DNA of 64,000 nt from Portulaca oleracea (lineage: Eukaryota > Streptophyta > Magnoliopsida > Caryophyllales > Portulacaceae). Below, piece by piece: positions 5,335 through 44,970 of the stretch (the first letter of the stretch is position 1; each line of letters begins with the position of its first letter). Where the stretch lies: NCBI GenBank assembly GCA_029582165.1, contig CM055892.1, positions 3,195,347-3,259,346 of the forward strand, given 5' to 3'. The position numbers and the translations under genes were made by a program. Below the pieces are notes generated by a model that did no database searches, was not told the origin of the DNA, and saw nothing but the letters and a program-made list of their open reading frames with translations.

Positions 5335-6638
5335 CTTGAGGTAAGTATCGTCTATCTTAAGACATTAAACTAGCGCTTCTTGGGAGGCAACCCAAGCTTT
5401 TTAGTTACTTTTCTTCCCTTTTCTTTCCTTTAGTCTTTTGTAGGAGTTTGTTTTTCCTTGTTTTTCATTTCTTTCCCCATTCCTAGTTTTCTCGTTTCCC
5501 TATTTCCTTTCATTCATATTAGTTTCTTTTCTTCGCTTTCCCTTTTGTTGTTTTAACCGTGTGCTTCTTTTGTATAGTGTGAGTATACTGAAAAAAAACA
5601 GAGAAAAAGAGGGAGAGAGAGTGAAGAAAAGAGAAGTTCGAGGGAGTGAAAGAGTTGAATTAGAACAAAAAAACTAGCATGGAGGGGTGAGATTGAGGGA
5701 GTCTTGAAGGTTATTGAGACTGAAGAAGAGCTTTGAGTGAGAAATGAAGGTAAAATAAGAGAGTGAAAATGTGTGTATATGGTTGAAGGTGAGAGAAAAG
5801 GAGGGAGTTAGTAGAGTTGGAATCTGTAAATATGAGTAAAAAGATGATAGAGAGAAGTGTGGAAGGTGTGCTCAGAAAACCGGCTCAATATGGCGCTTCA
5901 GCGCCAACCACGGCCTGCCCAAGGTCTTCACCACGGACCGTGGCCATTAGGGCTAGTTTTTTCCCAGCAAACTCCACTTCCAGCGCCAACCACGGTTAGC
6001 CCGTGGGATTGACCACGGACTGTGGCATCCATCCTCCCCTCTCTCCCAAAATCTCCCTCGAAACACCCACTTCCAACGCCAACCACGGTCTGCCCGTGGC
6101 ACCTGCCACGGACCGTGGCGGCTGGAAATCGCATAGAACTTCTTTTCTTTTCTTTTGTTTTCGCCCAATTCCTTTCTTTCCTTCTTCCTGAACCTTGCGC
6201 GACCCTAAACCCTAACTCTCAATGTCCATTCTACTCCTTCTCTTCTTCCTCCCTCATAAAACCTAACCCTAACCACAACCACCATTCGAGCCATCCTCAG
6301 CCACCAATTCATCCTCCTCCTTCTTCTGCTTCTTCATCTCCGTTCTTCCACCATTCTTTCTTTCTCTCACCAGACTCGCCTAACCCCACTCGACCCTCAC
6401 CATTCGCACCTCACCACACTCACCTAACCCCACTTGACCCTCACCATTCGAACACCACCCACACTCGCGCGAACGCTAACCCTAACCCTACTCGAGCCTT
6501 AGCCCTACTCTAGTCACATGTTCGATCCCCCACAACCCCCATTCGACCACCACATCCACAAATTCGAACCGCACCACCGTCTCTTCCATCCTTCATAGTC
6601 ACTTTTCCAAGTCACCATTGTTGGAGCTTCAAGTTGCA
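5335..6638 (+). other. Post-pol spacer and leader of ORF3, element A
   Basis: This stretch lies between pol and the third ORF. It starts with pyrimidine-rich sequence and a purine-rich stretch (5580-5830). A copy of the polypurine-tract motif TAGCATGGAGGGGT sits at 5675-5688. Three pairs of GC-rich palindromes (5908-6118) match the pair in the LTR. A CT- and C-rich segment with telomere-like CCCTAA units (about 6200-6500) follows. I see no coding sequence. The palindromes suggest a control region for the ORF at 6639. Confidence 0.6.
5908..6118 (+). repeat. Three palindrome pairs in the ORF3 leader of A
   Basis: Each pair is a 17-nt unit CCACGG-N5-CCGTGG followed after 6 nt by a 13-nt unit CCACGGACCGTGG. 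Unit positions are 5908-5924 with 5931-5943, 5990-6006 with 6013-6025, and 6083-6099 with 6106-6118. Centres are 21 bp apart in all three. The first unit of the first pair has a decayed right arm. The same pair occurs once in the LTR at 10161-10196. Function unknown; a dimer-binding site or RNA hairpins are possible. Confidence 0.85.
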
Positions 6639-7971
6639 ATGGCACCCAAGAAGAGACGAACCGATGCTGCAGGACCCTCGAACCAGCCGAATCCAAGGGA
6701 GCTTCATGCCTAGTGAGCCGCTAACCGTGCCGCTATGGAACCAGGTAACGATCCCATCCCTTTTTAGTTTAATAGTCCTATGCATACCGCTAATTACTTG
6801 CGTTTAAAATCCCATGGATTTGTTGCTACTCATTATATAGATGATGCTTTGTTGCAATCTATGGGTATTTTAGATGACATAAGATGGTTGTTTGCTAGAG
6901 GGGGGATGGGTGACTACTTAAACATCAAGGAACCCTCCTATTCGGACTTGACCTTAGAGTTTCTGAGTACTCTATACACTAAAGTTCAAAACGGACGAAA
7001 TTGTCAAGAGGGGGTCATCAGGTTCCGTCTGCGAGGCCAAGATTATCAGTTGAATTTGCGTACTTTCAATAACATTTTCCACCTCCCGCCTCCCCTAGAT
7101 GTGAGCGAGCGTTGTGTGCCACCGAGGTATAACCCGGATCCCTTCTAGGAAATGATCACCGGGGAGCCACATTTTGACTCTAGTAGATCAAAGCGACCGA
7201 AATTAAGAACCCCGTGATTATAGTAGCTCTATGTATCTTCGCGACGAGCTTTTTCACGAGAGATGACAGTACGAATATGCCTCGGATGGCGGAGTTGTTT
7301 TTGATGAGGAAAATGTATGAAAATGAACAAATGGACCCAGCTCCTTTTTAATAACACATCTACAGGAGATAGCTAATAGGAGTAAAGGAAAGATTACTTG
7401 CTGGGGGGGTTGTCACTAGGATTGCAAAATCTCTAGGAGTCATGCCGAATGAGGAGTATAGGATTCCAGGTTCTGAGAGGCTAGATCATAGCACTTTGAC
7501 TACCATGCTCTTTATTGTTTCTCGGGGGGGGGGGGGGGTAGTATTTACTGGAGGTACCCTAATAGGCAGCTCATGTAGTTGCTTAATGTAGCCCGAACAA
7601 TGATCCAAAATCGGGCCAACTTTTCCTTTTTACCAGGGGGGATGGTGACTCGATCCCCTAGACCTTATCAACTACGAGCCTGACTCCGACCAAGAACAAC
7701 CCCATCCCCCTCAATCATGTGGCCCTTCATCTTCTCACGCCTTTAACATGGATGACTTCTCTAGTGCACTCCACGAGATCCACAACGAGCAAACCTCCCT
7801 TAGGGAGTATGTCCAATCGGAGCATGTTGAGCTCTGGGGCATGATTGCGTCGCAAAACCAGCACTTGACCAACATGAGCGAGTGTTTATCCGCGATACGT
7901 GGTTGGTTCGAGAGCCATGGAGCCTAAATTCCTTACACTTACCCTCTGCCTCCTCCTGATGAGTGATGATT
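6639..7971 (+). pseudogene. Third ORF (ATHILA ORF-like) of element A, broken
   Basis: An ATG at 6639 opens MAPKKRRTDAAGPS, a basic start typical of post-pol ORFs of Athila elements. A stop follows within about 25 codons. The longest open stretch is 6780-7148 and includes FVATHYIDD, a GMGDYLNIKEPSYSDLT segment and FRLRGQDYQLNL, resembling the ATHILA ORF-1 family by memory. Downstream sequence is shifted and carries stops plus a 15-base G run (7524-7538). A C-terminal helical stretch SEHVELWGMIASQNQ is readable at about 7815-7860. Role unknown: such ORFs have been called env-like or putative transposon proteins, without proof. Its counterpart in D is far better preserved. Confidence 0.65.
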
Positions 7972-9892: not shown

Positions 9893-11240
9893 TGATAAGT
9901 ACATTATTTGCACTTATTTCTAGGTATTTTAGAAGCATAATCATGGTAGATTTAGGCCAAAAATGTGTTTAATCTTCCCCATTTCTCTATTTACGCTTGG
10001 TCTTTGTGTTTTTGGTATTGATTTTCAGGTTCAAGGCAAAAAATTCTATCTTAGGAGCAAATTTGGTAAGACCAAGGGTACCACGGGCTTCAACTATTGT
10101 TGATTAGACCTGGTACAAGTTTCAGCAAGAAACGAGCAGAGAACAGCCAGGCGGCGCCAACCACTGGCTGCCCGTGGTGACCGCCATGAACCGTGGTGGC
10201 CGCTGTTTCCTCGCTTTGGCGGTTATTTTTACGGAAATAAACCGGGAAGAGAGATAGAAGGTCGTTCATCATTCATTCTGGGCAGAAAAAGAGAGCTTCT
10301 TGAGTAATTCATCACCAAAACATCTACATCCATCAAGAATCAATCTGAAGAATTTGAAGAATTGGGATTCGAGAGAAAGCACGCGACACTCGTGAAGTAC
10401 TTTCCAATGAACACTCGTGAATTTGAAGAATTGGGATTCGAGAGAAAGCACGCGAGACTCTTCGGAATTCCTCCTAGTGTTTGCTTTACTCTTCTCATAT
10501 TTCTTTCTTAGTTCTAGAATTGATTATCATGTTTAGGACGTATTTCTTGTTTCCAATGAATATTTGTGAGTAGATTTCGTTCTTTCTAGGGTTCTATGAA
10601 CTAACATTATGGTGTTTGATTAGAATGTTTTAGTTTGTGCTTGAATTCTTGATTGAATCAATAGAAAGTTACGTTTTTCATGCTTACGAACGTTCTTAAG
10701 GCCTTGGATGTTTGTAATTCTGAGATTAACCTGAGAAGTACCCAAAGGTGAATTAGGGGAATTTGACTACCAACCTGTCTACCTAGGCTTACGAAAGTTG
10801 AAAAAGGAGTAGTAAACTAGGGAATCATTAGATAACCCGACTTTTTGAGACCTTCAATTCTATTTAACCTGAAAGGCAGAAAAAAGTTGTTGATTGGGTT
10901 AGTCAGGATAATTCTATTTAGCATAAAGGGCGATAGAATTTAGAGGTTATCGATTCTTGATTTATTTGAGTTACTTTCTTGCGCATGCTTTAACTTGTCT
11001 TTCAGACCCTGTTGTTAGGTGAATAAAACCCTAGAAGCCTTCATCCATTGAATTACCTCAAGCTCAACTTTTCCTGTCGACCTTAATTTTAGTTAGTTCG
11101 TTAGAAATCATCAAAAATCATCAAACCCGATTGGCTTAGCAATTAAGTAGAGGGATAGTTCACTGTGTTACTAGACTAAGTCCCTGTGGGATCGACCTTG
11201 ACATTGCTACAACAGTACCCGTGCGCTTGCGACCCTGTCA
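9893..11240 (+). repeat. 3' LTR of element A
   Basis: The LTR starts TGATAAGTAC and ends GACCCTGTCA. Limits are supported by the polypurine tract on the left, by foreign sequence on the right (element C from 11241), and by the matching LTR of element C on the minus strand (24406-25663). One palindrome pair sits at 10161-10196 in U3, ahead of an AT-rich TATA-like stretch near 10230. A repeated segment containing GAAGAATTGGGATTCGAGAG occurs at about 10347 and 10422. Confidence 0.93.
10161..10196 (+). promoter_or_regulatory. Palindrome pair in U3 of LTR A
   Basis: A 17-nt unit (10161-10177, CCACTG-N5-CCGTGG) and a 13-nt unit (10184-10196) have centres 21 bp apart. This is the same layout as the three pairs ahead of ORF3 in this element. 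One arm of each unit has a substitution. Confidence 0.75.
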
Positions 11241-11262: not shown

Positions 11263-12728
11263 TATTTAGACCCAATTTTGTTTCTAAATAGCGCCTTAAT
11301 TCTTTGGCTTTTGACTCATTTCGTGTTTTAATTTCGTAACTTTTAATACGTTTTTGGTTATTTTGTAGATTTTGGAGTTTTTACTCAAAACGTGGTAAAA
11401 AGGGCCATTTTAGAGCTATTTTGGGACTCCTGAAGTTTCCCGGGTCAAAAGCGAAGTAAAGAAGATGATCCAAGCCAGTCGAGGAGGACCGCAGCTGCGG
11501 TCCCATAGACAGCAGCTGCGGTGATCGACCCCAAGGCTGGGGCAAGGAGCATGTAACCCGAGAGGGACCGCACCTGCGGTCCCCTAGACCGCACCTGCGG
11601 TCTTGCAAAGGGAGAAGAGAAGAATCGCCTGAGCTTCGGAGGACCGCACCTGCGGTCTCCTACGGGTTCAAAAATTCTGTTATACTAAGTGTTGTGTTTT
11701 GAGTAACCACCTTGAGTTGTATATATTACCTCTTGAACGATTAGGTTAAAGAGGCAACTATCTATGGTAATATCAACATTTTAGCTTTCAATTAGAGAGA
11801 GACTAGAGTGATTTCTTAGTGATTAGTGAGTAATTACACTTGGTTTATTGCATTTGCTGTGGATTTTATCGGAATTCCATTGAAGTTCTGAAGATTTATC
11901 TTATTTTGGAGCTTGGATTACTTATTATTCAGGATCATCCTTCCATTGGCATCAAATTAATGAGCATTTCTTACCCTTACTCTCTTTAATTCATCTATTT
12001 ACTTTACAATCTTTGTTTTTGTTGTTTGATGTTTGTTGTTACTAGTTTGTTGCTTTGATTATCTATATTCTCTGTTTTAAGCATGAATAGTGAAGTTATT
12101 ATTATTGTTAGTATGTTAATTAAAGATGATTAGAGGCTAGAACCCTTATGGGTTAGGGAGAAACTAAGGATGTGAATGGTTGATTTGGATTGGGTTGACA
12201 ATTTTAGGAGGTAATTCGCTTTGGAGTCAATTTCCTAACCCTATCGTTCCCTCAAGTGGGATGTATTCGATTTCAAAAGCTCTTGAATACATCCAACACT
12301 CGTTGGAAGATGGGAATTGGGATAGTTAACGCTAGCCCACGAGAGTGGAAAGAGGTTAACTAGAGAGTCCCGTTCCTCAAACCCTCCGGGTCCGTGGAGG
12401 ACTTGTAGGAAGTTAATCCGGATTGCCTTGAAAAAGGAAATCTGGTGGGTTGTTATAATGGTATTTTCATTTGATTCTATTGATTTATTGCTTCCTGATT
12501 GCCAAACCCTCGTCCTAATTACTGTTTGCATCCCGAAATCTCCCGACACCCATAGTTTCTTTCCTGACCGAACCTTAGCTGTGTTGCGTTCTGTTGTGTA
12601 GTCGTTTACCTGAAAACCTCTTGTTGTCTTGTGATCCTTAAACCTCACCTAAAGTCAGATTAACCTAGCCAAGGCCCCTAGCTCCCTGAGAGAGAACGAC
12701 AAAACCGGGGTACATAAATCACGTTACA
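11263..12728 (+). repeat. 5' LTR of element B
   Basis: 1466 bp, ends in ACGTTACA. U3 carries five GC-rich palindromes (11487-11657), followed about 65 bp later by a TATA-like GTATATATTACC near 11722. U5 runs to the tRNA-Asp PBS. The 3' partner is 1100 bp because it lost the palindromes and TATA box. Confidence 0.94.
11487..11657 (+). promoter_or_regulatory. Palindrome array in U3 of B
   Basis: 16-nt units of the form GACCGCANNTGCGGTC lie at 11487, 11508, 11566, 11587 and 11642 (start positions). The first is a perfect palindrome, GACCGCAGCTGCGGTC. Two pairs have starts exactly 21 bp apart (16-nt unit plus 5-nt spacer); the fifth unit is single. The array ends about 65 bp before the TATA-like sequence. 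Confidence 0.88.
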
Positions 12729-12733
12729 CAAAA

Positions 12734-12867: not shown

Positions 12868-14760
12868 ATACAGACTCGATCTCGACGAGGCCGAACGCCT
12901 AAAACTCCACTGATTTCGAATCCAGAAAGTATTATTCGCAAGGCAAACGCTAGCTCGAGACGAGAAAGGCGACATAGGGAGCAAGTGAGAGTTGAAATTC
13001 CAATGGCTGAGGGAGAAGCAAGTCCACCCCGTACCTTAGCATCATATTCGTTCCCATCGTGGGGTACGGGAGGCGATCCCATAATATTACCTACATTACC
13101 ACCAAACGCATCGTTCAAGTTTAAACCATATTTGCTGGAGATATTCGAGAACACTCCATACCATGGAGAAGACCATGAAAATCCAATAGATCACATCAAT
13201 AGGTTCGAGCAACGAATCGGTTTCGTGCAAATGAACGGAGTTTCTGCCGAATACATGAAGCTGAAGTTTTTCCCACTCACTTTTAAGGGAAAAGCACTAT
13301 TGGGCTCAACACATGTCCACCGGGTACTTATTCTACATGGGATGCCCTCAGTCGTGATTTTCTTCAAAGGTTTTTTCCCAATGATGAGACGTGTCGTTTG
13401 AGGCAAGCCATTATGAGTTTACAACAAGAGTCCGGTGAGTCATTATTCGAAGCATGGGGGAGATTCAAAGGTCTCCAACGGAGGTGTCCTCACCACAATC
13501 TGGAGGATTGGCTACTTTTACACCATTTTTACTCGGGATTATGTAGCTCTTGGCGAAAATCTATCGATCATGCCTCCGGTGGCATGTTTCTTAAGAAGAC
13601 GGCGGATGAAGCAAATGTATTTCTCCATGAGTTATCTCAAAACTCTCCACATTGGAGAGGCGATGATGGTCCAAAAGATGGAGGTCCTTCTTTAGAGAGT
13701 AACCCTACAATTAAATTTCTTATGAATGTCGTATTGGAGATGCAATAAAAGAAGGCCTTAGAAGAGTCTACGAGGCAAGTAAAGGCAGCTCAAGAGGTAC
13801 CTATGCTTATTCCGGATGTCAGAGTTCTTATGTGCGATTTTTGTGGAGGGCAACATTCTTTGCAACAGTGTGAAGAGTACCAAGCCGAGTAAGTTCAAGC
13901 AATTTATCCAAATAATAACCTTTCTTATTCTACTCAAAATCCAGTTCGTCCTCCTGGAAATTATGTCTACAACCAACGAGCTCCACAAAACCAAAACACA
14001 CCCCCCGGTTTCCAAAATCAAAACCGTCGCCAATACCAACAAAACCCTCACCATGGTCAAACTTCCTAAGCACCCAGACCACCACAACAAGAATTTTTCA
14101 TCGAGCAAATATTACAACAGATCTCATTAACTCAAGATAGAGACTAAGCACGCATCAAGAATCTTGAGTTACAACTTTCTCAAATGGCACAACAAGCCAA
14201 GCCTATCCAATCCCTTCCGAGCCAACCTCAACCAAACCCTAAGGGGCAACTAAATGCTATTACATTGAGGAGTGGTAGGGAGATTGAAGGCCCTAACTTG
14301 GTGGAGGAGGATGTTTTGGGAGAAAAAGAAGGTGATGTGGTGGACGTCACGGATGAGGAGGATTTGATAGAGAAAACAGAGAGTGAATTTGTTTTTGTGA
14401 AGGGAAATGAGGGAGTTCATGAGGAGGAGTTAGAAGAATCTAGTATTGAGAGAGAATTGATTGAGAAAGAAAGAGAAGAGATGGAAAAAGTAAGAAAAGG
14501 GAAAGGAGTGATGATAGAAGAAGAACCAATTCAAGCTATTAAGAAGTCGAAGTTACCGTCGGTTCCTTTTCCCGAGAGGTTAGCCAAGCCCAAGTCGGAG
14601 TCTAAATTTTTAAAGTTCATAGAAATGCTCAAGAAACTTCAAGTGAATATTCCATTCCTCGATGCTATTTCCGAGGTTCCATCCTTTAAAAAGCACTTAA
14701 AGGAACTTCTCACTAGCAAGAGGAGAATGCAAGAGAAGACTATTATCCACTTGACGGCCG
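12868..14760 (+). pseudogene. gag: gag of element B (broken)
   Basis: The start used in D (ATGCAGACTCG, 29507) is ATA here, so the likely start codon is lost; the next ATG opens MAEGEASPPRTL at 13003. The capsid region is readable, for example FKPYLLEIFENTPYHGE. A frameshift near 13300 loses the WLNTCPPGT segment, and sequence returns to frame near 13398. The knuckle is CDFCGGQHSLQQC near 13835, a CX2CX3HX4C variant. A stop lies at the end of the 13398-13748 frame (TAA for CAA). A charged linker rich in Glu (about 14280-14530) leads to the protease. Confidence 0.87.
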
Positions 14761-17700
14761 ATTGTAGTGCTATTATTGACGACAAAACCCTGAAGAAGCT
14801 CGCTGAGCCCGGGAGTTTTTCCATTCCTTGCACCATTGGTGACATGAGGATTAGTCATGCTCTTTGTGATTTAGGGGCTAGCGTGAGCATTATACCTTAT
14901 TCTATATGTAAGAGGTTGAATCTAGACGATTTAACTCCTACGACCATCAATCTTCAATTGGATGATCGATCCGTGCGAAGACCCATGGGTATATTGGAGG
15001 ACATTCCAGTCCAAGTGGGAAGATTTTTGATACCGTGTGATTTCGTGATTTTAGAGATGGAGGAAGACCACAACATTCCTATCATTTTGGGAAGGCCATT
15101 CCTTGCTACGGCCGGAGTACTAATAGATGTGAAACATGGTAGTATGTCATTGAATGTCGGTGATGAAAGCACTATTTTCAACCTCGAGGGGTCCTTGAAA
15201 AATCCTTCGTATGGGGATTCATGTTACGCTATTGATATGATGGAGGTGCTAGTTGATGAATATCTTGAAGAATCTCATCTACTTGAGTCTACTTGCGATG
15301 ATCCTTTGGGAGCTTGTCTCTTAGAATCTTTCCAATTTGAGACCGACGGCACTGACATCACGTTTCTCACCAACCTCCTTGATTCATCACCAACGCATGA
15401 GGAGATTACTATTGACGAGCCTCATATTGAGTGTATGGAAATTCAAGAAGTGATCTGCAATGGTATGTCTTCTTCCCAAGTTAAATCCTCTACTTCTTCT
15501 TTAGAGCTTAAACCCTTACCCCCTTCCTTGCAATATGCTTTCTTGGATGATGAAAAGTCTTTTCCTGTTATTGTGAATGCTAAGTTGCATGACTCTGATT
15601 TGTCTAAGTTGCTTGATTTGTTAAGAAAGCATAGGGGTGCATTAGGTTATAAAATTAAGGATTTGAAAGGTTTGTCCTCATCCATATGTATGCATTCCAT
15701 TGATTTATTAGAAGAAGCAAAGCCAACTAGGCAACCACAACGTAGATTGAACCCTAATATGCAAGATGTGGTTAAGAAAGAAGTAGTCAAGCTTTTAGCC
15801 GCTGGGATCATCTTCCCTATCGCAAATAGCGAATGGGTAAGCCCAGTTCAGTGTGTGCCAAAGAAGGGCGGGATGACAGTCATTGAAAATGAAAAGAAAG
15901 AGCTAGTTAGTACCCGAACCGTCACAGGGTGGCGGATGTGCATTGACTATCGCCAGTTGAACAAAGTGACCAAGAAATACCATTTCCCTCTCCCCTTCAT
16001 TGACCAAATGTTAGAGAGGTTGGCGGGTCATTCATACTTTTGCTTTTTAGATGGGTACTCAGGTTTTTTCCAGATTCCAATCCATCCTGCGCATCAAGAA
16101 AAGACTACTTTTAGTTGTCCATATGGTACATTTGCTTACAGACTTGTGCCATTTGGTTTGTGCAATGCACTTGGAACATTTCAACGATGCATGATGGCCT
16201 TTTTTTAGTGATTTCATTGAACAATGTGTGGAATTTTTCATGGATGATTTTTCTGTCTATGATAATACCTTTGATGATTGTTTGGCTAACTTAGAGAAAA
16301 GTCTTATTCGTTGTGAGGAGGTCGACTTAGTTTTGAACTGGGAAAAATGTCATTTCATGGTAAAAGAAGGTATTGTTTTGAGGCACTTGATTTCTTCGAG
16401 GGGCATCGAAGTCGACAAGGCAAAAGTTGAAGTGGTAGAGCGCCTACCACCCCCAATTTACGTAAAAGGGGCGCGTAGTTTCCTTTGCCATGCCGATTTT
16501 TACCGCCGGTTCGTCCATGATTTTTCTAAAATCGCTCGTCCTTTAACTGATCTCTTGTGCAAGGATGCCCCATTCTCTTTTACTGATGAATGTCTCGAGT
16601 CCTTTTTCAGGTTAAAGCAAGCTTTGATATTCGCGCCGGTTGTCCAACCTCCGGATTGGACATTGTCTTTCGAGATTATGGCCGATGCGAGCGATTTCGC
16701 AATTGGAGCATGTTTGACTCAAACCAAAGAGAGGAAGTCGTGGGTCATCTACTATGCAAGCCATGCGTTTGATAGCGCACAGAAAAATTATATGACCAAG
16801 GAAAAGGAGCTTTTGGCTATTATCTTTGCTCTAAACAAATTTCGGTAATACCTCATGTTTTCCAAGGTTATTATATACACGGACCATGCCGCGATTAAGT
16901 TCTTGATGGGACAGAAAGAAACAAAGCCAAGACTCATTCGTTGGGTTTTGCTTATGCAAGAGTTCGATTTGGAAATTCGCGACAAGGTCGGGACTAAGAA
17001 TGTTATAGCCGACCACCTGTCGAGGATCCTTGTTGATTTGGATGATACTCAACCCATCATGGACTCATTTCCGGATAAACGCCTATTGTCCGTCAAGCAT
17101 TCTCACCCATGGGACGCTGATATCTTCAACTACTTGTCTAGTGAGGTGATTCCTAAAAATTTGACCCCTCATCAAAAGAAAAAGTTCTTTCATGACGTGA
17201 AACATTTCTTTTGGGACGATCCATTCTTGTTCCGTTTATGTAATGATGGGATGTATAGAAGATGCTTACCCGAGAGTGAAGTGAAGTCCGTATTGACGCA
17301 TTGTCATGAGTTCCCGGTTGGACGTCATGGTGGATCTCAAAAGACGGTTGCAAGAGTCTTACAAGCCGGTTATTGGTGGTCGACCCTCTTTCGAGATGCC
17401 TATCTTCATGTCAAGTCGTGCGATAAATGCCAAAGGTCTGGAAATATTTCCCGGAAAAATGAGTCACCGCTGAATTTCATTCTCGAGGTAGAGGTTTTCG
17501 ATGTGTGGGGGTTAGATTTTATGGGTCCCTTTCTATCATCAAGAGGTCATCAATATATTTTAGTGGCGGTAGACTATGTGTCGAAGTGGGTTGAAGCGAT
17601 TCGATGCGTGAGATGCGATGGAAAATCCGTATCAAGATTTTTGAAGAAGGTTATTTTCACAAGATTTGGTATTCCGAGGGTCATTATTAGCGATAATGGA

Positions 17701-18298
17701 TCTCATTTTATTGAGAAGAGGTTTCAGTCCCTCTTAGCAAAGTATGGTATCACTCACAAAAGAGGACTCCCATATCACCCTCAAACGCAAGGTCAAGTAG
17801 AGATTTCGAATCGTGCTATTAAGGAGATTTTGGAGAAAACGGTTAGTTCTTCACAAAGAGATTGGACGGAGAAACTAGATGATGTCTTGTGGGCATATCG
17901 CACCGCTTTCAAAACTCTAATAGGGACTACCTCATACCGCCTTGTCTACGGGAAATCATGCCATTTTCCTGTGGAACTTGAACACAAGACGATGTGGGCA
18001 ATCAAAAAGATGAATTATGATCTCAAGGCGGCCGGGGCAAGTCGTTTATTCCAATTGGAGTAGCTTGAGGAATTGAGACGTCACTTCTATGAAAACAATA
18101 GGATTTACAAGGAGCGAACTAAAGCATGGCACGACAAGAGATTGAACCGTTGCGATTTAGTGGTTGGTGATAGAGTCCTCATCTTCAATTCGAGGCTCAA
18201 ACTCTTCTCCGGAAAGTTAAGATCGAGATGGTCAGGGCCTTTTGAAATCAGAAAGATTCTTCCCGCCGGAGTTGTTGAACTTAAGAATGCAAATGGAG
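14761..18298 (+). pseudogene. pol: pol of element B (near-open but truncated)
   Basis: One frame stays open from 14184 to 16208. The protease has ALCDLGASVSIIP (about 14856-14895). The RT has GWRMCIDYRQLN (about 15929-15964), then an extra T in a T-run near 16206 shifts the frame. FMDDFSVY follows at about 16237. RNase H starts near 16680 (MADASDFAIG). CAA became TAA near 16847. The integrase keeps an HHCC-type region (about 17300-17435) and all three core acids: Asp in LDFMGP (about 17515), Asp in SDNGSHF (about 17690) and Glu in GQVEIS (about 17800). GAG became TAG at 18061-18063. The C-terminus is cut by the deletion at 18298. Confidence 0.92.
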
Positions 18299-24405: not shown

Positions 24406-25663
24406 TGACAAGGCCGCAAGCGCAGGGGTACTAACGCAATGAACTATCCCTCTACTTAATTACTAAGCCAATCGGGTTCTTGATGTTTTTGCTGATTTCT
24501 AATAAACTAATAAAAACTAAGGTCGACAGAAAGAGTTGAGTCTACGGTAATTCAATGGATGAAGACTTCTAGGGTTTTACTCACCTAACAACAGTGTTTG
24601 AAAGACAGGTTAAAGCGTGTACAATAAATAACTTAAACGAATCAAGAATCGACACCCTCTGAATTCTATTGCCCTTTCAATGCTAAATAGAATTATTCTA
24701 AACAACCTAACCAACAACTTTCGTATGCCTTTTAAGTTAAACAGAATTGAAGGTCTCAAAAAGTCAGGTTATCTAATTGATTCCCTAGTTTACTACTCCT
24801 TTATCAACTTTCTAAGCCTAGGTAGACAGGTTGGTAGTCAGATTCCCCAAATTCACCTTTCAGTACTTCTCATGTTAATCTCAGAATTACAAGCATCCAA
24901 GGCTATAGAACACTCATAAGCATGAAAAACGCAACCTTCTATTGATTTATTCAAGAATTCAAACACAAACTAAAACATTCTAATCAAACACAATAATTTC
25001 AGTTTATAAAACCCTAGAAAGAACGAAATCTACTCACGAATAGTCATTGAAAACAAGAAATACGTTCTAAACATGATAACCAATTCCAGAAACTAAGAAA
25101 GAAACGTGAAAAGAATAAAGCAAACTCTGAGGCGGATTCCGTAGAGTCTTTCGATCTCCGGGGCGGAAATTTCTTCGCGAGTGTTGCACGTTTCCTCTCG
25201 AATTTCAATTCTTGGAAATCTTCAAAATGATTCTCAATGAAACGGAGGTGTTTTTGTGATGAATTACTCAAGAAGCTCTCTCTTTCTGCTGGGAATAACT
25301 GATGAACGACGCTAATTTTCTCTCCCCCTTTTATCTGCTGCGAAAATAACCGCCAAAGAGCATCTCCAGCGGCCACCACGGGCAGCCCGTGGTGGGCACC
25401 GCCTGGCGCTTCTTTGATCGGTTCCTCCTGAAATTCATGCCACGGGTTGATCAACAGTGGTTGATGCCCGTGGTACCCTTGGTCTTGCCAAATTTGCTCC
25501 TAAAGTCGGCTTTTTTTGCTTCTGAATCTGCAAATCAACACTAAAAACGCAAAGACCAAGCGTAAATAGAGAAATGGGGGAGATTAAACACATTTTTGGC
25601 CTAAATATACCATGATTATGCTTCTAAAACACCTAGAAATAAGTGCAAATAACACACTTATCA
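24406..25663 (-). repeat. 5' LTR of element C
   Basis: 1258 bp, starting TGATAAGTGTG at 25663 (minus) and ending TGTCA at 24406. It matches LTR A. A perfect 17-nt palindrome CCACGGGCAGCCCGTGG lies at 25376-25392, about 40 bp before a TATA-like AGATAAAAGGGG (minus strand, about 25337-25326). A longer dyad, CCACGGG...GCCCGTGG, spans 25440-25473. Confidence 0.92.
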
Positions 25664-26199: not shown

Positions 26200-27480
26200 G
26201 ACCCCTTTAACGAAGGAAAATAGATGCAGGGACATTGAACACATTGTAATACGTAAGTGACATTCATAACACCAAAACCTACAACATTAATATATCGAGC
26301 GTATCGTGATGGGAAAATAAGAATTCCATGCTTAAAGAGGTTGATAATAGAGTTCTTGTTGATGATAATAATAGTAAGACCTTGATCGAGGAACATTAAT
26401 AACACACCAATGATGTCACTCTAAGCCTATGAACCAAAGAAGACTTGATATGAAGTTGGGTAAAGGAAATTACACCAAGAGCTAAAAATCCACCATGATT
26501 AGATAAAGGAAGAATCCACCACTAATCACTAAAAAGGAGAGACTTGCAGCACCACCATCAATCAATCAATCAATTGATAAAGTAAACGAGATAGGGAGAG
26601 AGTTTTAAGTCTCAAAAATACCATATATTTCATTCAACTTACATAAGTCTTCGTCTTTTCCACTTACCCATATATAGGTAAGGATAGGGACATAACCCCA
26701 AGAGAGATTAGCTTTAAAAAGGGTCATTAACCTACAAGTTAATTACATTCCATAGCCTAATCCAACTCAATAATACATTGAGGAGAATTGGCTCATAATT
26801 ACATTGATCAAAAGATGAAAGACAAAACAACCCTTAATGAAGGAGTAAATATTTCGGATCAACATGTGCATCGTGGGCGCGACACAGGACATCGCGACCG
26901 TGACAAGATGGCTCGTGCAAGGAGGCAGCGTCCAGGTGCGAGCGTCGCAAGCAGGACGATGACTGTCGCGATGAGGCAATGGGAGATTCCACCCCAAGAA
27001 CGGATTCGATGTGTCACGAGCGCGACACTGAGACATAGAGAAAAAATGTCACAGCCATGACAATGTCGTTGCACGCATGACATCCAGGAGGCTTCCAATG
27101 TCGCGGTCGCGACATGGGCTTTGCGGGCATGATGCCCTTCGGGCACAACCCCCTCCAAGATCCCCGCTAAGTCATGGGATAGGGGACAAAAAGGGGTCGC
27201 CGCCGCGACCTGACTTTCGTGAGCTTGACACCCTTCGGTCACATTCCCTCCAAAACTTCAACCAAAATGTGGGATAGGGAAGAGAGGGGTCGCAGTCCGA
27301 CTAGTGCAGTCACACCCACGATGTCCTTGTCTCCCAGCCAAGACGACCCTGAACAAATATGTGCCACAGTCATGACACTGAACGTCACGACCGTGACAAC
27401 CCTGCTGCACTTCCAAAAATGGTTTTCTTTCACCCTTGCACCTCTTCTCCAGTCTCCGTCCTCGTTATTTGTGTCGATAT
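26200..27480 (-). repeat. LTR-like segment, minus orientation, limits uncertain
   Basis: The minus strand shows an array of short GC-rich palindromes (27396-26871), then a TATA-like CTATATATGGGTAAGTGG near 26691. A leader-like segment rich in CTCTCTCCC and a short ATTG repeat (about 26560) follows. This layout matches the solo LTR at 43218-44970, although the sequence is different. I could not find TG/CA ends with a TSD, so the limits are approximate. It lies inside what looks like an intron of the Ulp1-like gene. Confidence 0.45.
26871..27396 (-). promoter_or_regulatory. Palindrome array of the minus-strand LTR-like segment
   Basis: 12-nt imperfect palindromes of the form TCGCGNNCGCGA / TCACGNCCGTGA. 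Starts of pairs: 26871 and 26892 (21 bp), 27049 and 27069 (20), 27101 and 27121 (20), 27197 and 27217 (20), 27290 and 27310 (20), 27364 and 27385 (21). TCGCGGTCGCGA at 27101 has one central mismatch. CpG-rich, unlike its AT-rich surroundings. Confidence 0.65.
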
Positions 27481-27878: not shown

Positions 27879-29368
27879 TGTTTAGACCCAATTTTGTGTC
27901 TAAATAGCGCCTTAATTCTTAGGCTTTTAACTCGTTTCATGTTTCAATTTCATAACTTTTAATATGTTTTTCGTTATTTTGTAGATTTTGGAGTTTTTAC
28001 TCAAAACATGGTAACAAGAGCCATTTTAGAGATATTTTGGGAATCCCGAGGTTTCCCAGGTCTTGACCGGGTCAAAGGCGAAGTAAAGAAGGAATTTCCA
28101 GCCAGCCAGGAGGACCGCACCTGTGGTCCAGTAGACTGCAGCTGCGGTGGTTGCCAAGACTTGGGCTGGGAACAAAGTCACGTCTGTGGGACCGTACCTG
28201 CGGTCCCACATACCGCACCTACGGTCATGCGAAGGGAGAAGACTAAAAATCGTCTGTGCTTCGGAGGACCGCACCTGCGGTCCCCTGCGGGTTCAAAAAA
28301 TCTGTTATATGAAGTGCTGCGTTTTGAGTAACTACTTGGAGTTGTATATATCACCTCTTGAACGATTAGAGTGAGAGAGGCAGCTATCTATTGTAATATC
28401 AACATTTTAGCTTTCAATTAGAGTGAGATTAGTGTGATTTTTTAGTGATTAGTGAGTGTTTACACTTGGTTTATTGCATTTGCACTGGATTTTATTGGAA
28501 TTCTATTGAAGTTCTGAAGATTTATCTTCTTTTGGAGCTTCAATTCTTATTACTCTTGACCATCCTTCCATTGGCATCAACTAATGAGCATTTCTCAACC
28601 CTTACTCTCTTTAAGTCATCTATTTATGTTTTAATCTCTGCTTTTGTTATTAGATTGCTTGGTGTTTGTTGTTATTTGATTGTTGCCTTGATTATCTAGA
28701 TTCTCTGTTTTAAGTATGAATGATGAAGTTATTATTATTGTTAGCATGTTAATTAAGATGATTAGAGGCTAGAACCCTTATGGGTTAGGGAGAAACTTAG
28801 GATGTGAATGGTTGATTTGGATTGGGTTAGCAATTTTAGGAGGTAATTCGTAGTGGAATCAATTTCCCAATCTTATCCTTCCATCAAGTGGGATGTATTC
28901 GAGATCGAAAGCACTTGAATACATCAAACACTTGTGTTGGAAGGTGAGAATTGGGATAGTTAACGCTCGCCCACGAAAGTGGAAAGAGGTTAACTAGAGA
29001 GTCTCGTTTCTTTAACCCTCCGGGTCCGTGGTTGGCTTGTAGGAAGTTAATCCGGGTTGTCCTTGAAAAAGGAAATCCGGTGGGTTTATTCTAATGGGAT
29101 TGTCACTTGATTCTACTGATTTGTAGTTTCCTAATTGCGAACCCCTCGTCCTAATTACCGTTTTCATCCCGAAATCTCCCGACACCCATTGTTTCCTTCT
29201 TGACCGAACTTTAGTCGTGTTTGCGTTCTTTTTGTGTTGTCCTTTACCTGAAAAACCTCTTATTATCTTGTGAACCTAAACCTTACCTAAAGTCAAGTTC
29301 TCCTAGCCAAGGCCCCTAGCTCCTCGAGAAGAACGATAAAAAAACCGGGGTACAAAAACCACGTTACA
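27879..29368 (+). repeat. 5' LTR of element D
   Basis: 1490 bp. Five palindromes lie at 28113, 28134, 28190, 28211 and 28267, with a TATA-like GTATATATCACC near 28343. It ends ACGTTACA next to the PBS. It is very similar to the 3' LTR, with scattered substitutions. Confidence 0.95.
28113..28282 (+). promoter_or_regulatory. Palindrome array in U3 of the D 5' LTR
   Basis: Pairs 28113/28134 and 28190/28211 both have starts 21 bp apart, plus a single unit at 28267 (GACCGCACCTGCGGTC). Several arms carry C-to-T changes. The last unit ends about 60 bp before the TATA-like box. Confidence 0.87.
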
Positions 29369-35034: not shown

Positions 35035-36196
35035 AAGAGCGGATTAGGTCGAGCTAGGACCTAAAACAAGCAACTGGGAGGAGGTACGAGCTATTCTCCT
35101 CTTCCTTAGTGTTTTCTTTTATTTCTTGCACTTTTATTTCTTTTGTTCTAATGTTCTTGTTTCGTTCATATTGAAGTTTGAGAAAAGAAAAAAAAGAGAG
35201 GAGTGGAAAATTTTAAAAAAGAAGAAAAACAAGAAGAAAAAATTGAGAAAATAGAAAAATTCGAGTGTGAGAAGAAAATTTGTGAAGAAAGTTGTTTATT
35301 ATGGTTTTTGAATGTTGAATGTTGTTGAGTGTGAAGAAAAGAAAAAAGGGTTTGATAATGAGAAGAGTAGAAATCTTAGGACTTAACATTATTTTCAAGG
35401 AGTTTTGAGTCTTGTAGGTGCAGGGCATCAACAGAGGAAGACCGCACCTGCGGTACCCATTACCGCAGCTACGGTCTTGTCACAACGTGTTGATCAGTCT
35501 TGCTCCAGGAGGAGACCGCACCTGCGGTCTCGCTATTTCACTTTTCACTAATTTTGGTTCCAGGAGAAGACAGCGGCTGCGGTGTGCCATACCGCACCTA
35601 TGGTCTCAACAGACGATTTTCCCTCTCATGAAGGTTCTAGCAGGAGACCGCACCTGCGGTCCCTCGAAGGTTTGCGATTTCTGTCGGGGTTAATACCCTT
35701 TTCTCTCTCATTTTCTTTTACTTCTTTTCCCTCTCACTCACTCGAAAAACCCTCTTTCTCCCTCTAAACCCTAAACCCTTATCCCAATTGCTCAAATCCT
35801 TCACAAATTCCTCTTCCCCACTCTCCATTTCCACGAATTTATGCCCTAGCCGAGGCACTTCACCATTTTCGCACCTTTTGTGGAGCTTTTCAAGTGCAAA
35901 TTCTGGGTAGAGTTCATCCTTGGGGTTCGAAAATGGCAAGGGAGTGCTCCTAAGTATCAAATCAGGTACTCCTTGTTCTTTTGTGTGCCAAAGTTCATTT
36001 TTCTTGCTAATTGTGTGCACAATTTCATCATTTGCTTCTTGGATATTGTTGAATGCTCTTGGTTGAGGCTTAGAGGTATCGGTATTGTGTGCAATTTTGT
36101 TGTTGATTGGAGTCTGGTTGGTGAAGTTCTTGGTGGAAACTAGGAGTTTAGATATTGTGTGCATATTGTTGTTGTTGTTACTCCTTGTTTACTCCA
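35035..36196 (+). other. Leader ahead of ORF3 in element D
   Basis: AT- and GA-rich sequence to 35420, then six palindromes (35440-35661), then CT-rich sequence containing TCTAAACCCTAAACCC near 35765. No conserved ORF. It is equivalent in position to 5335-6638 of A and has the same layout. Confidence 0.65.
35440..35661 (+). repeat. Six palindromes in the ORF3 leader of D
   Basis: 16-nt units start at 35440, 35461, 35514, 35569, 35590 and 35646. The pairs 35440/35461 and 35569/35590 are exactly 21 bp apart, as in the LTR of the same element. Units 35514 and 35646 are single and intact, GACCGCACCTGCGGTC. The order pair, single, pair, single resembles the LTR order pair, pair, single. Confidence 0.87.
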
Positions 36197-37543
36197 ATGG
36201 GTCGCGCTAAACGAGCCTGGACCGAGAAAGAACCAATCCCTCCTCAATCTTCGTCGACGGAGCCCGACAAGAACCGATACAAAGCACAACCCGCCTCCTT
36301 GATTCAATGTGACCTGAAGGTGAAGGTTACTTTTCAGGATGAGATGCATAAACAGAGGTATGCACGGTTGAAACAGAGGAAAATTTGTGCTCCCGATATT
36401 TATGATGAGCAAACGGCAAAAGATATCTATTGCAAACCGACCATGGATTTCTTCATCAAAACTTTTGGTTGGGAAGTTTTCATCACCATCAGTGAGCCTA
36501 TCGTAGATCAACCGGTGCTCGAATTCTTGAGCTCTTTAGTGGTAAAGGAGGATGGCATATCGAATGCATCTTTTACTTTCGGGGTTGCTAAGGAGGAAAT
36601 TGAGTGTTCAGTTCAGGATCTTTGCGATGCTTTGGGTCTCCATGTGGATGGATTGTACTACGGAGAGTGCGTTAGATTCAATGAACAAGAGGCAATGAAG
36701 GCTCTCACCTGTTGGCGGAGGCGATATCCAAAGTCTCGAAATCGTCAATCGAGGATTCATTGGCCGAATAACTCCAAAGCTCGAGATTTCTACAATTTAA
36801 GTGTTCGACTCTTCCATCGGATCATTTCAAGTTCTGTCTTCGGCCACGACATTGGGCGATCAAACGTCCGCAAAGACGATCTTTTCGTCATCTTCAATGC
36901 AATCAATGGTCGTCGTGTCAACACCGGCTCTTGCATTCTCCACTGTCTTCGGGAAATCAGCCTCGAACTCTGCAACATGACCATTGGCATGGGTCATATA
37001 ATCTGTCACTTTCTCAAGAGGAAAGGCTTCGAGTCTTACCTCGCCAAATGGACTCCACGGTATTTCCCCGACCCTATTGACGGTGTGAAATTGTGGAAGA
37101 TGGAATTCTTGGAGAAACACAAGACGCAAACTCTATACCGCCATGGGTATGACTCCCACAGTATCGCGATTCGATTGGATCACGATCATACTGAAGAATG
37201 GTTGAATGTCACCGACCAACGAAACTGGTCATGTGGGAAAAGGCACGGAGGTCGCCGAATAGTGGGTGGTCCTTTTGAACCCGTGGAGGAGATTGAAGAG
37301 GAAGAGGAAGAATAAGAGCAAGGAGAAGATGCGGGTGCAAGCCAAGCTAGAGATTCTACATTGGAGCGTATCAGTGATCAACTCGAGGAACTACACAATG
37401 AGTTCCAAAAGCAGCGAGAATTAATCCAAAACCAACAAATTCTGATTGAGAATTTGCAAGAGCTTCTTGAGGCGCAACAAGAGATCCTTGTTGGCATTCA
37501 ATCGCAGCTCCAACCCCATCCTCCTCCGGGAGGATCCGCTTGA
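36197..37543 (+). pseudogene. Third ORF of D (putative plant transposon protein), one internal stop
   Basis: ATG at 36197 starts MGRAKRAWTEKEP, a basic N-terminus like that of A ORF3. It is open to TAA at 37313-37315 in an acidic EEEEEE run, then continues in the same frame to TGA at 37541-37543, about 448 codons. The central region (DFFIKTFGWEVFITISEP, then a DLCDALGLHVDG segment) resembles the putative plant transposon protein domain of post-pol ORFs in Athila-type elements, from memory. The C-terminal part is Gln/Glu/Leu-rich and likely coiled-coil (RISDQLEELHNEF onward). No transmembrane segment or signal peptide is evident, which argues against an envelope role. It is less damaged than gag-pol. 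Confidence 0.7.
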
Positions 37544-39768: not shown

Positions 39769-41287
39769 TGTTTAGACCCAATTTTGTGTCTAAATAGCGC
39801 CTTAATTCTTAGGCTTTTAACTCGTTTCGTGTTTTAATTTCATAACTTTTAATACGTTTTTCGTTATTTTGTAGATTTTGGAGTTTTTACTCAAAACGTG
39901 GTAAAAAGGGTTGTTTTAAAGCTATTTTGGGAATCCCGAGGTTTCTCGGGTCTTGACGGGTCAATGGCGAAGCAAAGAAGGAATTTCCAGCCAACCGAGG
40001 AGGACCGCACCTGCGGTCCTGCGGTCCAGTAGACAGCAGCTGCGGTGGTTGCCAAGACTTGGGCTGGGAACAAAATCACCCGAGAGGGACCGCACCTGCG
40101 GTTCCACAGACCGCACCTGCGGTCATGCGAAGGGAGAAGACTGAAAATCGCATGTGCTTCGAAGGACCGCACCTGCGCTCCCCGAGACCACACCTATGGT
40201 CCCCTGCGGGTTCAGAAAATCTGTTATATGAAGTGTTGTGTTTTGAGTCACTACTTGGAGTTGTATATATCACCTCTTGAACGATTAGAGTGAGAGAGGC
40301 AGCTATCTATTGTAATATCAACATTTTAGCTTTCAATTAGAGTGAGATTAGTGTGATTTCTTAGTGATTAGTGAGTGATTACACTTGGTTTATTGCATTT
40401 GCACTGGATTTTATTGGAATTCTATTGAAGTTCTAAAGATTTATCTTATTTTGGAGCTTCGATTCTTATTACTCTTGATCATCCTTCCATTGGCATCAAC
40501 TAATGAGCATTTCTCAACCCTTAATCTCTTTAATTCATCTATTTATGTTTTAATCTCTGCTTTTGTTATTAGATTGCTTGGTGTTTGTTGTTATTTGATT
40601 GTTGCCTTGATTATCTAGATTCTCTGTTTTAAGTATGAATGATGAAGTTATTATTGTTGTTAGCATGTTAATTAAGATGATTAGAGGCTAGAACCCTTAT
40701 GGGTTAGGGAGAAACTAAGGATGTGAATGGTTGATTTGGATTGGGTTAGCAATTTTAGGAGGTAATTCGTAGTGGAATCAATTTCCCAATCTTATCCTTC
40801 CCTCAAGTGGGATGTATTCGAGATCGAAAGCTCTTGAATACATCCAACACTTGTGTTGGAAGGTGGGAATTGGGATAGTTAACGCTCGCCCACGAAAGTG
40901 GAAAGAGGTTAACTAGAGAGTCCCGTTTCTTTAACCCTCCGGGTCCGTGGTTGGCTTGTAGAAAGTTAATCCATATTGTCCTTGAGAAAGGAAATCCGGT
41001 GGGTTTATTCTAATGGGATTGTCACTTGATTCTACTGATTTGTTGCTTCCTAATTGCGAACCCCTCGTCCTAATTACCGTTTGCATCCCGAAATCTCCCG
41101 ACACCCATTGTTTCCTTCTTGACCGAACTTTAGTCGTGTTTGCGTTCTTTTTGTGTTGTCCTTTACCTGAAAAACCTCTTATTATCTTGTGAACCTAAAC
41201 CTTACCTAAAGTCAAGTTCTCCTAGCCAAGGCCCCTAGCTCCTCGAGAAGAACGATACAAAAATTGGGGTACAAAAACCACGTTACA
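39769..41287 (+). repeat. 3' LTR of element D
   Basis: 1519 bp, TGTTTAGACC to CGTTACA, followed by TSD TCGTG. Palindromes start at 40003, 40032, 40088, 40109, 40165 and 40186, with a TATA-like GTATATATCACC near 40263. Compared with the 5' LTR it has one extra unit at the end and an 8-bp duplication between the first two units. Confidence 0.95.
40003..40201 (+). promoter_or_regulatory. Palindrome array in U3 of the D 3' LTR
   Basis: Three pairs. 40088/40109 and 40165/40186 are 21 bp apart. 40003/40032 is 29 bp apart because CTGCGGTC is duplicated in tandem at its junction, 21 plus 8. Confidence 0.85.
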
Positions 41288-41684: not shown

Positions 41685-41689
41685 GTAAA

Positions 41690-42250: not shown

Positions 42251-42252
42251 TC

Positions 42253-43160
42253 ATATGTAAATGTTCACTTGTAAACCCGTGAATATGCAATGGTGAACCT
42301 AGTGCTGAATGGGTAAACCCTAAACCTCATGTATGGCCCAATTTAGCTAGTAAATGTAAATGTTGATGTCCATAAGTGTAAAACCAAGGTTTTGCTTTGG
42401 TTTACCCTCCTCCTTTTGTGGGTGAACCTAGTGCTGAATGGGTTTACATTTTTCCTTTACTGTGTTCATCAATACGAAAATAAATATGCAAGAGTTGGTC
42501 TAATTTTGGCTATATAAGTTATTAGGTTGATTATTATCGGCCTACATTAACAGGTCCACCCCATGGTATGACCCAATTTAGTCGTAGCAGGTACATGGGA
42601 ATGTTCATATATGTCTAAACCCAAGTTTCTGTAAGGGTGAACCTAGTGCTGAATGAGTTTACCTTCATCCTTTGGTGGGTTCATCAATACAGAAAAAATA
42701 TGTGAGAGTTGTTCTAATTTTGGCTTGACTTGTCAATCTTTCAGCTGACTCGATAACTCGACCCGAACGCGCAACTCATTCATATGTTATTTCTCTTATT
42801 TAAGTTGAAACAACAACATTAATCTATCGTTACTAGAAAATAATCATATTTTATTATGTATATTGTATGAAAAATAATAATTAGAGACAAAGTTTTTAAT
42901 GAAAAAGCAGAAAACAGTCGCACTCATAACCCGTTTTACCATAACAAAATTGAAGCTAGTGTTATTCAATTCCTTAATTGTCACACATGTTTTTTTCAGG
43001 TACCCTTCTTGGTCATTCATCTAAAACATGTAAATGTTGGTGTTCAAATGTGTAAATCTACAACTTTATTTATGTGAACCCAACGCTGACTGAGTTTACG
43101 TTCCTCCTTTGGTGGGCTCATCAATATAGAAAAAAGAAGTGATCTTTCATATTCAGCAAC
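42253..43160 (+). repeat. Degenerate tandem repeats of roughly 150-300 bp
   Basis: The block GTGAACCTAGTGCTGAATG recurs at about 42292, 42421 and 42638, with a weaker copy near 43073. Each lies near GTTTAC and TGGGTTCATCAATA-type sequence, and copies of ATGTAAATGTTG...TGTAAACC lie upstream of them. Another partial unit resumes at 44971 after the solo LTR. Confidence 0.65.
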
Positions 43161-43217
43161 AAAATTCAAGTTAATGTTATTCAATTCCTTAATTGTCAAA
43201 CATGTTTTTTTGGCTAC

Positions 43218-44970
43218 TGTTGACGTTCTCCTAGGGGTTAGGACAACGGTCGTATTGGTTTGAGGAGTCAGGATTCCAACCTAAGAATCTCACGAGAGCA
43301 CTCACCAACTAGGTTTGGGAGTCGATGTTTGTGGTGGTGAATAAACTACTAAACTAAGGTCGAAAGGGAAAAACATGGTAAAAAGGTAAGGGCTCGGGGG
43401 TAGTATCGGGCCTCCCAACGAAGAACTAAACGCGGATTTCGTGGTTTTAGGAACGATCGGTATTCGGTCGTTAGGTGTGGGGATTACATGCATACCAAGC
43501 TAGTATCGATTTCCCTCGCCACTATTTGCTTCCTATGCATGAGCTAGTGTCAATCTCCCTCACTAGAGTGATAGATTGACTTCCCAAGTCCCGTCATCAC
43601 TCTCATGTATTAGTAGTATAAGAACGCAATCATAAGTAATCAATTCTGAATCCCTCTCATCAGAGTTAGGATTTCCAAATGATTAAACCACCCTAGAGTT
43701 ACAATTCGATGCTTGGAAGGATCCATAACCTCCCGGGACCTGGTATCCTTCAATTGGCGAGTGGAAAACTAGGGTGGAACACCTACTCACCCCCTAACCT
43801 TAAGGGAACTACTCATACATAATGAAGGCTAAAACTAATTCAACAATCGAACCAAAACTTATCATAGAACTAGCAAAGCAATGGAAAGAACAAATAACAA
43901 CACTAATCAAATTAATCAAAATCATAAATAAGATAATCAAGACAAGAAGTAAACCAATTAAGAGCATAAAATAAAGGAGGAGAAAGAAGAACTTACAAAG
44001 AATTAGGAATAGATTCAAGCTTCAAAGTAGAAAGAACGAGAATGAGAGATTCAATTACAAAAACTAAACCCTAATCCAATTACAAAGAAATTAAACCTAA
44101 TCTAAGAACTAATATAAGGGCTAAATAAACTAAGCTAGGGAATAAAAGCTTCCCCCTGAAAAGCTCTAGGTTTACAATATATATATATAGTCAGGGCAAA
44201 AATGGCCACAACACAAGCGTTTTGGGCCGAAAATAATTACGTAGATCAGGGGGGTCACGGGCGTGATATAGGGCATCATGACCGTGACCCCTGGAGAAGT
44301 CCGGATATGTTCACTGAATCCCGCAAACCTCACGGGCATGACCAATGGTGCTTACGGCCGTGAGGTACCTCCTAGAGGGGGCGCCTCTGGTAGGTCACGG
44401 TCGTGAGGCCTAGTCTCGATGGAAAACCTCTTCACCCCTTACGGGAGTGACAAGTGAGGGTTATGGCTGTGAGGGCCTTGCTGTCTGGGCCTCTTCTTCA
44501 AGGTCACGGCCTTGAGAATGTAGATCATGGCGTGAGGTAGTGTTCTATGAAATCCAGGGTTCTGGAGTGTCACGGCCGTGAGAATGGTGGTTACGGTCGT
44601 GACCCCTCTTATGTCCTTTGCCTCTTTTCGACTCATCTTCACACCCAAGTAACCATAAGGGTCACGGCTGTGAGGTCAAGGGTCACGTCCATGACTCCCT
44701 TGCTCAGGGTTTCCTTCTTGTTTCTCCTCTAGTGTCGGGATTGAGGCTCGGTTCTTCTTTTCTAGGGCAGGGTTTCCTTGATATATCCCGACTCTTATGT
44801 ATTTAGGCCTGAATTGGCCTTGTTTTGTGCACTTTTGCTCCACAAGCATCTAAGGACTATGAAATCTGCAAAAGGAAGAAATAAAGTGAAAATACTAACA
44901 AACATACATAGAACAGAGTCAAAACCTAAGGGAAAAGGAACGGATTTAGGCTCAAAACCGAGCCAAAACA
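43218..44970 (-). repeat. Solo LTR with 5-bp TSD
   Basis: 1753 bp, TGTTGACG...CCAAAACA, flanked by GCTAC at 43213-43217 and 44971-44975. With it removed, the flanks rejoin a sequence seen uninterrupted at 42995-43060. No internal retroelement sequence. Orientation is taken as minus because the TATA-like run (44177-44195) then lies just after the palindrome array. Unrelated in sequence to the two Athila families here. Confidence 0.85.
44255..44694 (-). promoter_or_regulatory. Palindrome array in the solo LTR
   Basis: 12-nt units of the form TCACGGCCGTGA (perfect at 44570-44581). Pairs by start: 44255/44276 (21), 44330/44352 (22), 44439/44461 (22), 44504/44525 (21), 44570/44591 (21), 44662/44683 (21), plus a single unit at 44395. 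On the minus strand the array ends about 60 bp before the TATA-like run. Confidence 0.85.

Follow-up and report, generated by a model that had tools for sequence, protein, structure and literature searches.

Paired GC-rich dyads about 21 bp apart in LTR retrotransposon families of Portulaca oleracea

In a 64,000-nt stretch of the Portulaca oleracea genome (assembly GCA_029582165.1, contig CM055892.1, positions 3,195,347 to 3,259,346; referred to as the window), the long terminal repeats (LTRs) of several retrotransposon families, and the region after pol in two of the elements, carry GC-rich dyads, i.e. short inverted repeats, in pairs with centres 20-22 bp apart. This geometry exceeds that of shuffled sequence and is common to families with different arms, so that motif turnover under a fixed geometry, as proposed in the initial annotation, is a fair description. 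With moderate confidence, we read the pairs as promoter-proximal binding sites in double-stranded DNA for pairs of dimeric proteins; the protein itself, its cooperative binding, the existence of an internal promoter and the direction of the effect are what we infer from this arrangement. All results refer to one plant genome, used without LTR annotation.

Dyad pairs in the window

A strict dyad scan of the window (arms of at least 6 nt, loop of at most 5 nt, GC content of at least 60%) returned 38 dyads in 64 kb, 24 of them within the clusters listed here. The motif scans tolerated mismatches, up to 4 for the hits of family 3.

5908..6118, plus strand: outer element, internal cluster after pol, not in the LTR; pairs 5908/5931, 5990/6013, 6083/6106
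10161..10196, plus strand: outer element, LTR pair 10161/10184; same arms and loop-5/loop-1 order, 21.0 bp
11487..11657, plus strand: element A, 5' LTR; pairs 11487/11508, 11566/11587; single dyad 11642; TATA 11720
25376..25392, minus strand: outer family, inverted LTR copy; loop-5 dyad retained, no partner at up to 3 mismatches
26870..27397, minus strand: family 3, degenerate cluster GTCGCGNNCGCGAC; pairs 26870/26891, 27048/27068, 27196/27216, plus other hits
28113..28282, plus strand: element B, 5' LTR; pairs 28113/28134, 28190/28211; single dyad 28267; TATA 28345
35440..35661, plus strand: element B, internal cluster after pol; pairs 35440/35461, 35569/35590; single dyads 35514, 35646; arms those of its own LTR
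40003..40201, plus strand: element B, 3' LTR; 40003/40032 at 29 bp (8-bp insertion), 40088/40109 at 21 bp; third dyad 40165 doubled
44255..44694, minus strand: family 4, cluster TCACGGCCGTGA; pairs 44255/44276, 44330/44352, 44439/44461, 44570/44591, 44662/44683, plus dyads 44395 and 44504
43218..44970, minus strand: family 4, solo LTR with TG..CA ends and GCTAC on each side, read by eye

Family T (arms GACCGCA..TGCGGTC) is represented by elements A and B. Self-comparison of the window places the LTRs of element A at 11265-12729 and 19632-20733, and those of element B begin at 27879 and end at 41287, with TCGTG flanking both sides. In the tolerant motif scan, five of the six LTR pairs of this family lie at 21 bp and the sixth at 29, together with both internal pairs at 21. 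The two LTRs of element B (28267-28282 versus 40165-40201) differ by an exact 21-bp unit that turns a single dyad into a pair, and also by an 8-bp unit inside another pair, which indicates that dyads expand or contract after insertion. The distance from the last dyad centre to the TATA box is 69 bp in two of the three LTRs and 90 bp in the third, the 3' LTR of element B, where the additional 21-bp unit brings a further dyad. In element A, the dyads and the TATA box of the 5' LTR belong to a block of about 390 bp that is missing from the 3' LTR.

The outer element (arms CCACGG..CCGTGG) is present in both orientations according to the same self-comparison. Each of its internal pairs consists of a loop-5 dyad followed by a loop-1 dyad with centres 21.0 bp apart, and including the LTR pair all four pairs are found at 21.0 bp in the tolerant motif scan. 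The plus-strand LTR block gave none at 20-22 bp in the tolerant dyad scan, and in the inverted LTR copy there is no partner dyad at up to 3 mismatches. The three outer-family pairs at 5908-6118 lie inside the element rather than in an LTR.

The 12 motif hits of family 4 (TCACGG..CCGTGA, minus strand) combine to five pairs at 21, 22, 22, 21 and 21 bp, with a TATA run at 44180-44189. Family 3 (GTCGCG..CGCGAC), taken as the stretch near 26640-27480 without fixed LTR ends and with a guessed sense strand, also has 12 hits, with three pairs at 21, 20 and 20 bp; it is a weak, degenerate case, as shuffles of this block gave 2.9 hits on average and up to 7. This block showed none at 20-22 bp in the tolerant dyad scan or the direct-repeat lag count, and family 3 had no coding evidence. 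Taken by motif and shuffle scans, the suggestion of 20-22 bp pairs in all four families is borne out, weakly so for family 3.

The tolerant dyad scan of nine window blocks against 200 shuffles revealed 10 pairs at 21 bp versus 0.31 expected, and 14 pairs at 20-22 bp together versus a shuffle mean of 2.40 and a maximum of 8. Raised numbers were also seen at about 10 bp (17 versus 1.33), which are largely alternating half-sites of the same pairs, at 38 bp (6 versus 0.90) and at 56 bp (7 versus 0.80). Counting direct-repeat lags in 12 blocks, each picked for dyads already seen there, yielded 17 at 21 bp, 5 at 20 and 1 at 22, and no other lag below 41 had more than 1; the blocks AthInt and L024 have no lags at 20-22.

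Coding frames in the outer element, element A and element B have Ty3/gypsy-type matches to reverse transcriptase (RT), RNase H, integrase and gag models (RVT_1, RT_RNaseH, Integrase_H2C2, rve, Retrotrans_gag). Element A encodes protease, RT, RNase H and integrase in Ty3 order at 14148-18063, and gag is seen in element B. Two open reading frames (ORFs) or parts thereof follow the internal clusters:

6768..7148, plus strand: outer element, open piece matching PF03078 ATHILA ORF-1 (49.1 bits, cut-off 20.2)
36152..37315, plus strand: element B, open frame after the internal cluster; matched weakly by PF20167 Transposase_32, with 31.5 bits against a cut-off of 45

The outer piece is part of an otherwise broken reading region, and the internal CCACGG cluster lies ahead of it. 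The element B frame matches this ATHILA ORF-1 piece with a BLASTP E-value of 2e-06 in a direct comparison; against the whole window it returned only its self-match at E 0.01, and among 863 protein database candidates there was none at E 0.001 and none in PDB. Each internal cluster follows pol and precedes an Athila-type frame or, in the outer element, a piece of one. In both elements with such a cluster, the LTR and the cluster have the same arms, and the outer element also keeps the loop order. Element A lacks the block that carries the cluster and ORF of element B, and here no strict dyad was found between pol and the 3' LTR.

Spacing elsewhere in the genome

Outside the window, we sampled 25 stretches of 10 kb (L plus a number) at round-number positions fixed before viewing. 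They contain 159 dyad pairs in total, 49 of which are same-arm pairs within 120 bp, and 20 shuffles gave none. Within 12-40 bp there are 12 nearest same-arm neighbours: eight at 20.0 or 21.0 bp, from six stretches (L012, L013, L020, L025, L026, L028), and the others at 24.0, 24.5, 37.5 and 40.0. When the same-arm condition was dropped, there were 12 pairs at 20-22.5 bp versus 0.40 expected, and also 13 at 48.5-55 bp versus 1.10. GC-rich direct repeats with an inverted repeat in the unit gave four at lag 20, four at 21, one at 24 and otherwise none (lags 10-26). The arm types seen at 20-21 bp include CAACACGG, TGGCTC, GACCGT, CGTAGC, GCGCT, GTAGCG and TCACG; as some types share cores, the samples and the window together hold about six distinct arm cores.

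The last dyad lies 71 bp upstream of the TATA box in family 4 and L028, 71-73 bp in L013 and L024, 82-84 bp in L012 and 91 bp in L025. The TATA position is ambiguous in L014 and L020, and L026 has no TATA on either strand. In L028, whose dyads are of the family 4 type, relatives of the element B frame adjoin the dyads.

Searches of the 1.13-Gb assembly with pair patterns of three arm types, allowing distances of 13-45 bp, gave 126 matches per strand for CCGCANNTGCGG (reverse-read control 0), 987 for GTAGCGNNCGCTAC (control 0) and 1170 for TCACGNNCGTGA (control 0). For each pattern 50 distinct places were listed and counted by eye; these are the first places and not a random draw, for two patterns from contig 1 alone. 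Among them, CCGCANNTGCGG has 25 at 21 bp, 17 at 22, 5 at 42, 1 at 20 and 2 at 16; GTAGCGNNCGCTAC has 33 at 21, 1 at 20, 2 at 30, 4 at 39 and 10 at 42-45; and TCACGNNCGTGA has 20 at 21, 10 at 22, 1 at 20, 3 at 23, 11 at 29-31, 1 at 33, 1 at 39 and 3 at 42-43. In sum, 111 of the 150 listed places fall at 20-23 bp, 14 at 29-33, 23 at 39-45 and 2 at 16, with none listed at 24-28 or 34-38.

CCACGG pairs with a free first loop were matched 305 and 274 times genome-wide (control 0). Among 91 distinct places listed, likewise counted by eye, 80 combine loop 5, spacer 6 and loop 1 at a centre distance of 21.0, and the other 11 comprise 5 at 20, 1 at 20.5, 1 at 21, 1 at 22 and 3 at 41-42. Where both loops are 1, seven of the nine listed places have a spacer of 7-9 with centres at 20-22, and two lie at 41-42. 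Across families, the half-site distance within a dyad varies from about 6 to 11 bp and the centres stay at 20-22. Pairs of a made-up control arm, GATGCG, were found at 0 places genome-wide. Together with the shuffles, this disfavours chance as the source of the pairs.

Some loci show further arrangements. At L020:5051-5149, two adjoining 21-bp pairs have arms of different types (GACCGT and CGTAGC), and at L028:3740-4080 the dyad starts follow a rhythm of 21, 44, 21, 44, 21, 44, 74 and 21. CCACGG dyads at G000:C2:26405838-26405891 are 41 bp apart with a CAACAC-type-arm dyad between them. In L016:5130-6300, dyads of the AAACCCGCGCGGGTTT type are repeated without 21-bp pairing.

Binding sites, descent or RNA structure

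According to the reading we favour, homodimers of a sequence-specific protein would occupy the dyads, one to each, and the two dimers of a pair, separated by two helical turns and on one side of the DNA, would bind cooperatively. From about 70 bp upstream of the TATA box they would set LTR transcription, and the second, same-arm cluster would act from within the element on transcription of the post-pol Athila-type ORF. Between families the arms would shift as the binding protein or its specificity shifts, with the dimer-dimer geometry retained. Among the evidence for such paired dimers, the listed distances gather near whole helical turns (20-23, 29-33 and 39-45 filled; 24-28 and 34-38 empty), and the last dyad often lies 69-73 bp ahead of TATA. 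The mostly steady centres under a changed loop, and the varied half-site distance, speak for a constraint on where the dimers sit along the helix rather than on the size of hairpin or spacer.

Several points weigh against this. The initial annotation placed the pairs beside the core promoter, which is true for families T and 4; in the outer family, however, 300 bp on the sense side are free of a TATA motif in both copies, and family 3 has a TATA at 201 bp and not at the usual distance. In the sampled families, the TATA box seen partly determined which strand was taken as sense, so that the offsets are partly circular; an independent coding frame agrees with the chosen sense only for L028 (Athila-type frame) and L013 (RT frame). 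The places listed genome-wide are copies of families and not independent, and the 29-31 bp group is largely one copied spacer. Direct repeats counted without the inverted-repeat condition are noisy (17 at 21, 14 at 20, 14 at 12 and 12 at 24), and the distances from pair to pair vary without clear phase. Moreover, the arm variety is so great that many proteins or one fast-evolving protein would be needed.

The most serious rival, which we still regard as unlikely, is descent combined with slippage: an ancestral LTR would have held a 21-bp duplicated dyad, and copying, with slippage between the two dyads, would maintain the unit length and the likeness of arms within a pair, the spacing being without function. 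The exact 21-bp unit by which the LTRs of element B gain or lose a dyad fits this, as do the arms in L020, alike within each pair and different between the two pairs, and one CCACGG locus that is a 20-bp tandem array. However, spacer letters vary and spacer length hardly does, and the inner loop change of 4 in CCACGG pairs mostly leaves the centre distance as it is. Slippage alone would also not favour distances of about 21, 30 and 42 with 24-28 and 34-38 empty, a point that is weakened by the copied families. Tandem duplication alone, which the initial annotation had named as a refutation of its proposal, is thus an insufficient account: gain and loss of 21-bp units occur, yet different arms and inner loops share the distance.

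RNA structure, with the dyads forming hairpins in the element RNA for packaging, for stability or as Dicer substrates that give rise to small RNAs, a role discussed for maize Sireviruses, appears improbable to us. The proposed folding check gave a divided answer, as 17 of 18 pair segments fold with a z-score below -1 (range 0.0 to -6.5), but 14 of the 18 form one hairpin and only four form two. An excess of small RNAs over Sirevirus palindromes, for which the part of PMC10760457 considered here cites Bousios et al. 2016, is in line with an RNA function. Selection on RNA pairing would favour G.T mismatches, but sense-strand arm mismatches in 83 dyads of 14 sets amount to 31 G.T, 31 A.C and 37 other, and of 522 cells only 3 are changed on both sides and 420 are unchanged. 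This comparison is blurred by decay after insertion and by the sense strand guessed for L026 and family 3, so that it supports the argument without being decisive. A centre distance of two helical turns has, in addition, no rationale in RNA. Thus, mismatch symmetry and mixed folds disfavour RNA hairpins as the constrained form.

Returning to the paired-dimer reading, a trans-acting reader of an element's own dyads explains the combination of LTR and internal sites better than local RNA folding does, on a thin case of three elements. Each family may even encode its own dimeric regulator, perhaps the post-pol Athila-type ORF, that would read the family-specific dyads both in the LTR and in front of the gene encoding it, as in a lambdoid-like immunity circuit; we hold this extension to be quite improbable. 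The operators of lambdoid phages are dyads that differ by phage, lie about two helical turns apart and are each read by the phage's own dimeric repressor. They belong to bacterial viruses with known repressors, and the likeness to the elements described here is one of layout only. If such a regulator exists, operator letters would diverge, the two-turn geometry would stay, and each family would control only its own kind. Least credible is a spacing of CpGs, in which a methyl-DNA reader or methyltransferase would recognise methylated CpGs that the arms hold at helical intervals: most arms seen contain CpG and Sirevirus repeats flank CpG islands in the account given by parts of PMC2829016, but the arms of L013 (TGGCTC) and L024 (GAACCC) lack CpG and arms pair over up to 12 bp.

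Relation to Sireviruses and other known systems

Palindromic repeats in retroelement LTRs and ahead of a post-pol ORF are an already known kind of feature. The passages of Bousios et al. (2010; PMC2829016) used here describe, for the Sireviruses among Ty1/copia elements, palindromic repeated motifs (RM) that precede the TATA box of the LTR as well as ENV, so that the pairs cannot be called previously undescribed, as the initial annotation had it. According to these passages, 77 of the 79 copies in the linker precede ENV and none occur in elements that lack it, the repeats border CpG islands, the RM is called Sirevirus-specific relative to classic Ty1/copia elements, and no spacing rule is given for it.

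Measured against this partial description, families T and 4 likewise repeat palindromes of their own in the LTR ahead of TATA, unlike the outer family without a TATA motif; family 3 is unclear. Extra copies ahead of a post-pol ORF, absent where the ORF is absent, are a second likeness, seen here in three elements only. The CGG-CCG core of the RM recurs in the CCACGG and TCACGG types and is absent from GTAGCG, GCGCT and TGGCTC. In contrast to the RM, the hosts are Ty3/gypsy where tested (outer element, A and B) and not Ty1/copia, and the dyads are paired at 20-22 bp. Sirevirus-type CGGTC pairs CGGTCNGACCG have 0 matches within 42 bp in this genome. The PF03078 ATHILA match strengthens the link to Sireviruses, and the zero for CGGTC pairs slightly weakens it.

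In maize Sireviruses, the LTR has fast-evolving palindrome clusters in its regulatory region (Bousios et al. 2016, as reported in parts of PMC10760457 and PMC5311732). These differ from the present elements in being Ty1/copia, in their grass host and in a small-RNA hotspot over the palindromes, as far as these parts tell. Box I of Tnt1 is named as a symmetric element in the passages from 2010 (PMC2829016). To judge from these, it is alike as a symmetric regulatory site in a plant LTR and differs in belonging to one element. To our knowledge, there is no 21-bp pair rule for box I.

The literature considered by title and abstract, with most subscription papers outside its scope, contained no Ty3/gypsy case and no spacing rule. 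On this basis, what is new is the occurrence in Ty3/gypsy hosts, the two-turn pairing seen with several arm types and the frequent TATA offset of about 70 bp. If the 21-bp rule holds across plants, it would provide a sequence-independent signature of LTR promoters and a route to the factors switching them, and the regulatory logic would perhaps be common to two retroelement superfamilies. As the same sites lie ahead of the post-pol Athila-type ORF, the role of this ORF also becomes testable.

Apart from the dyads, a tandem array that repeats about every 138 bp is found at 45439-45958, near the family 4 insertion.

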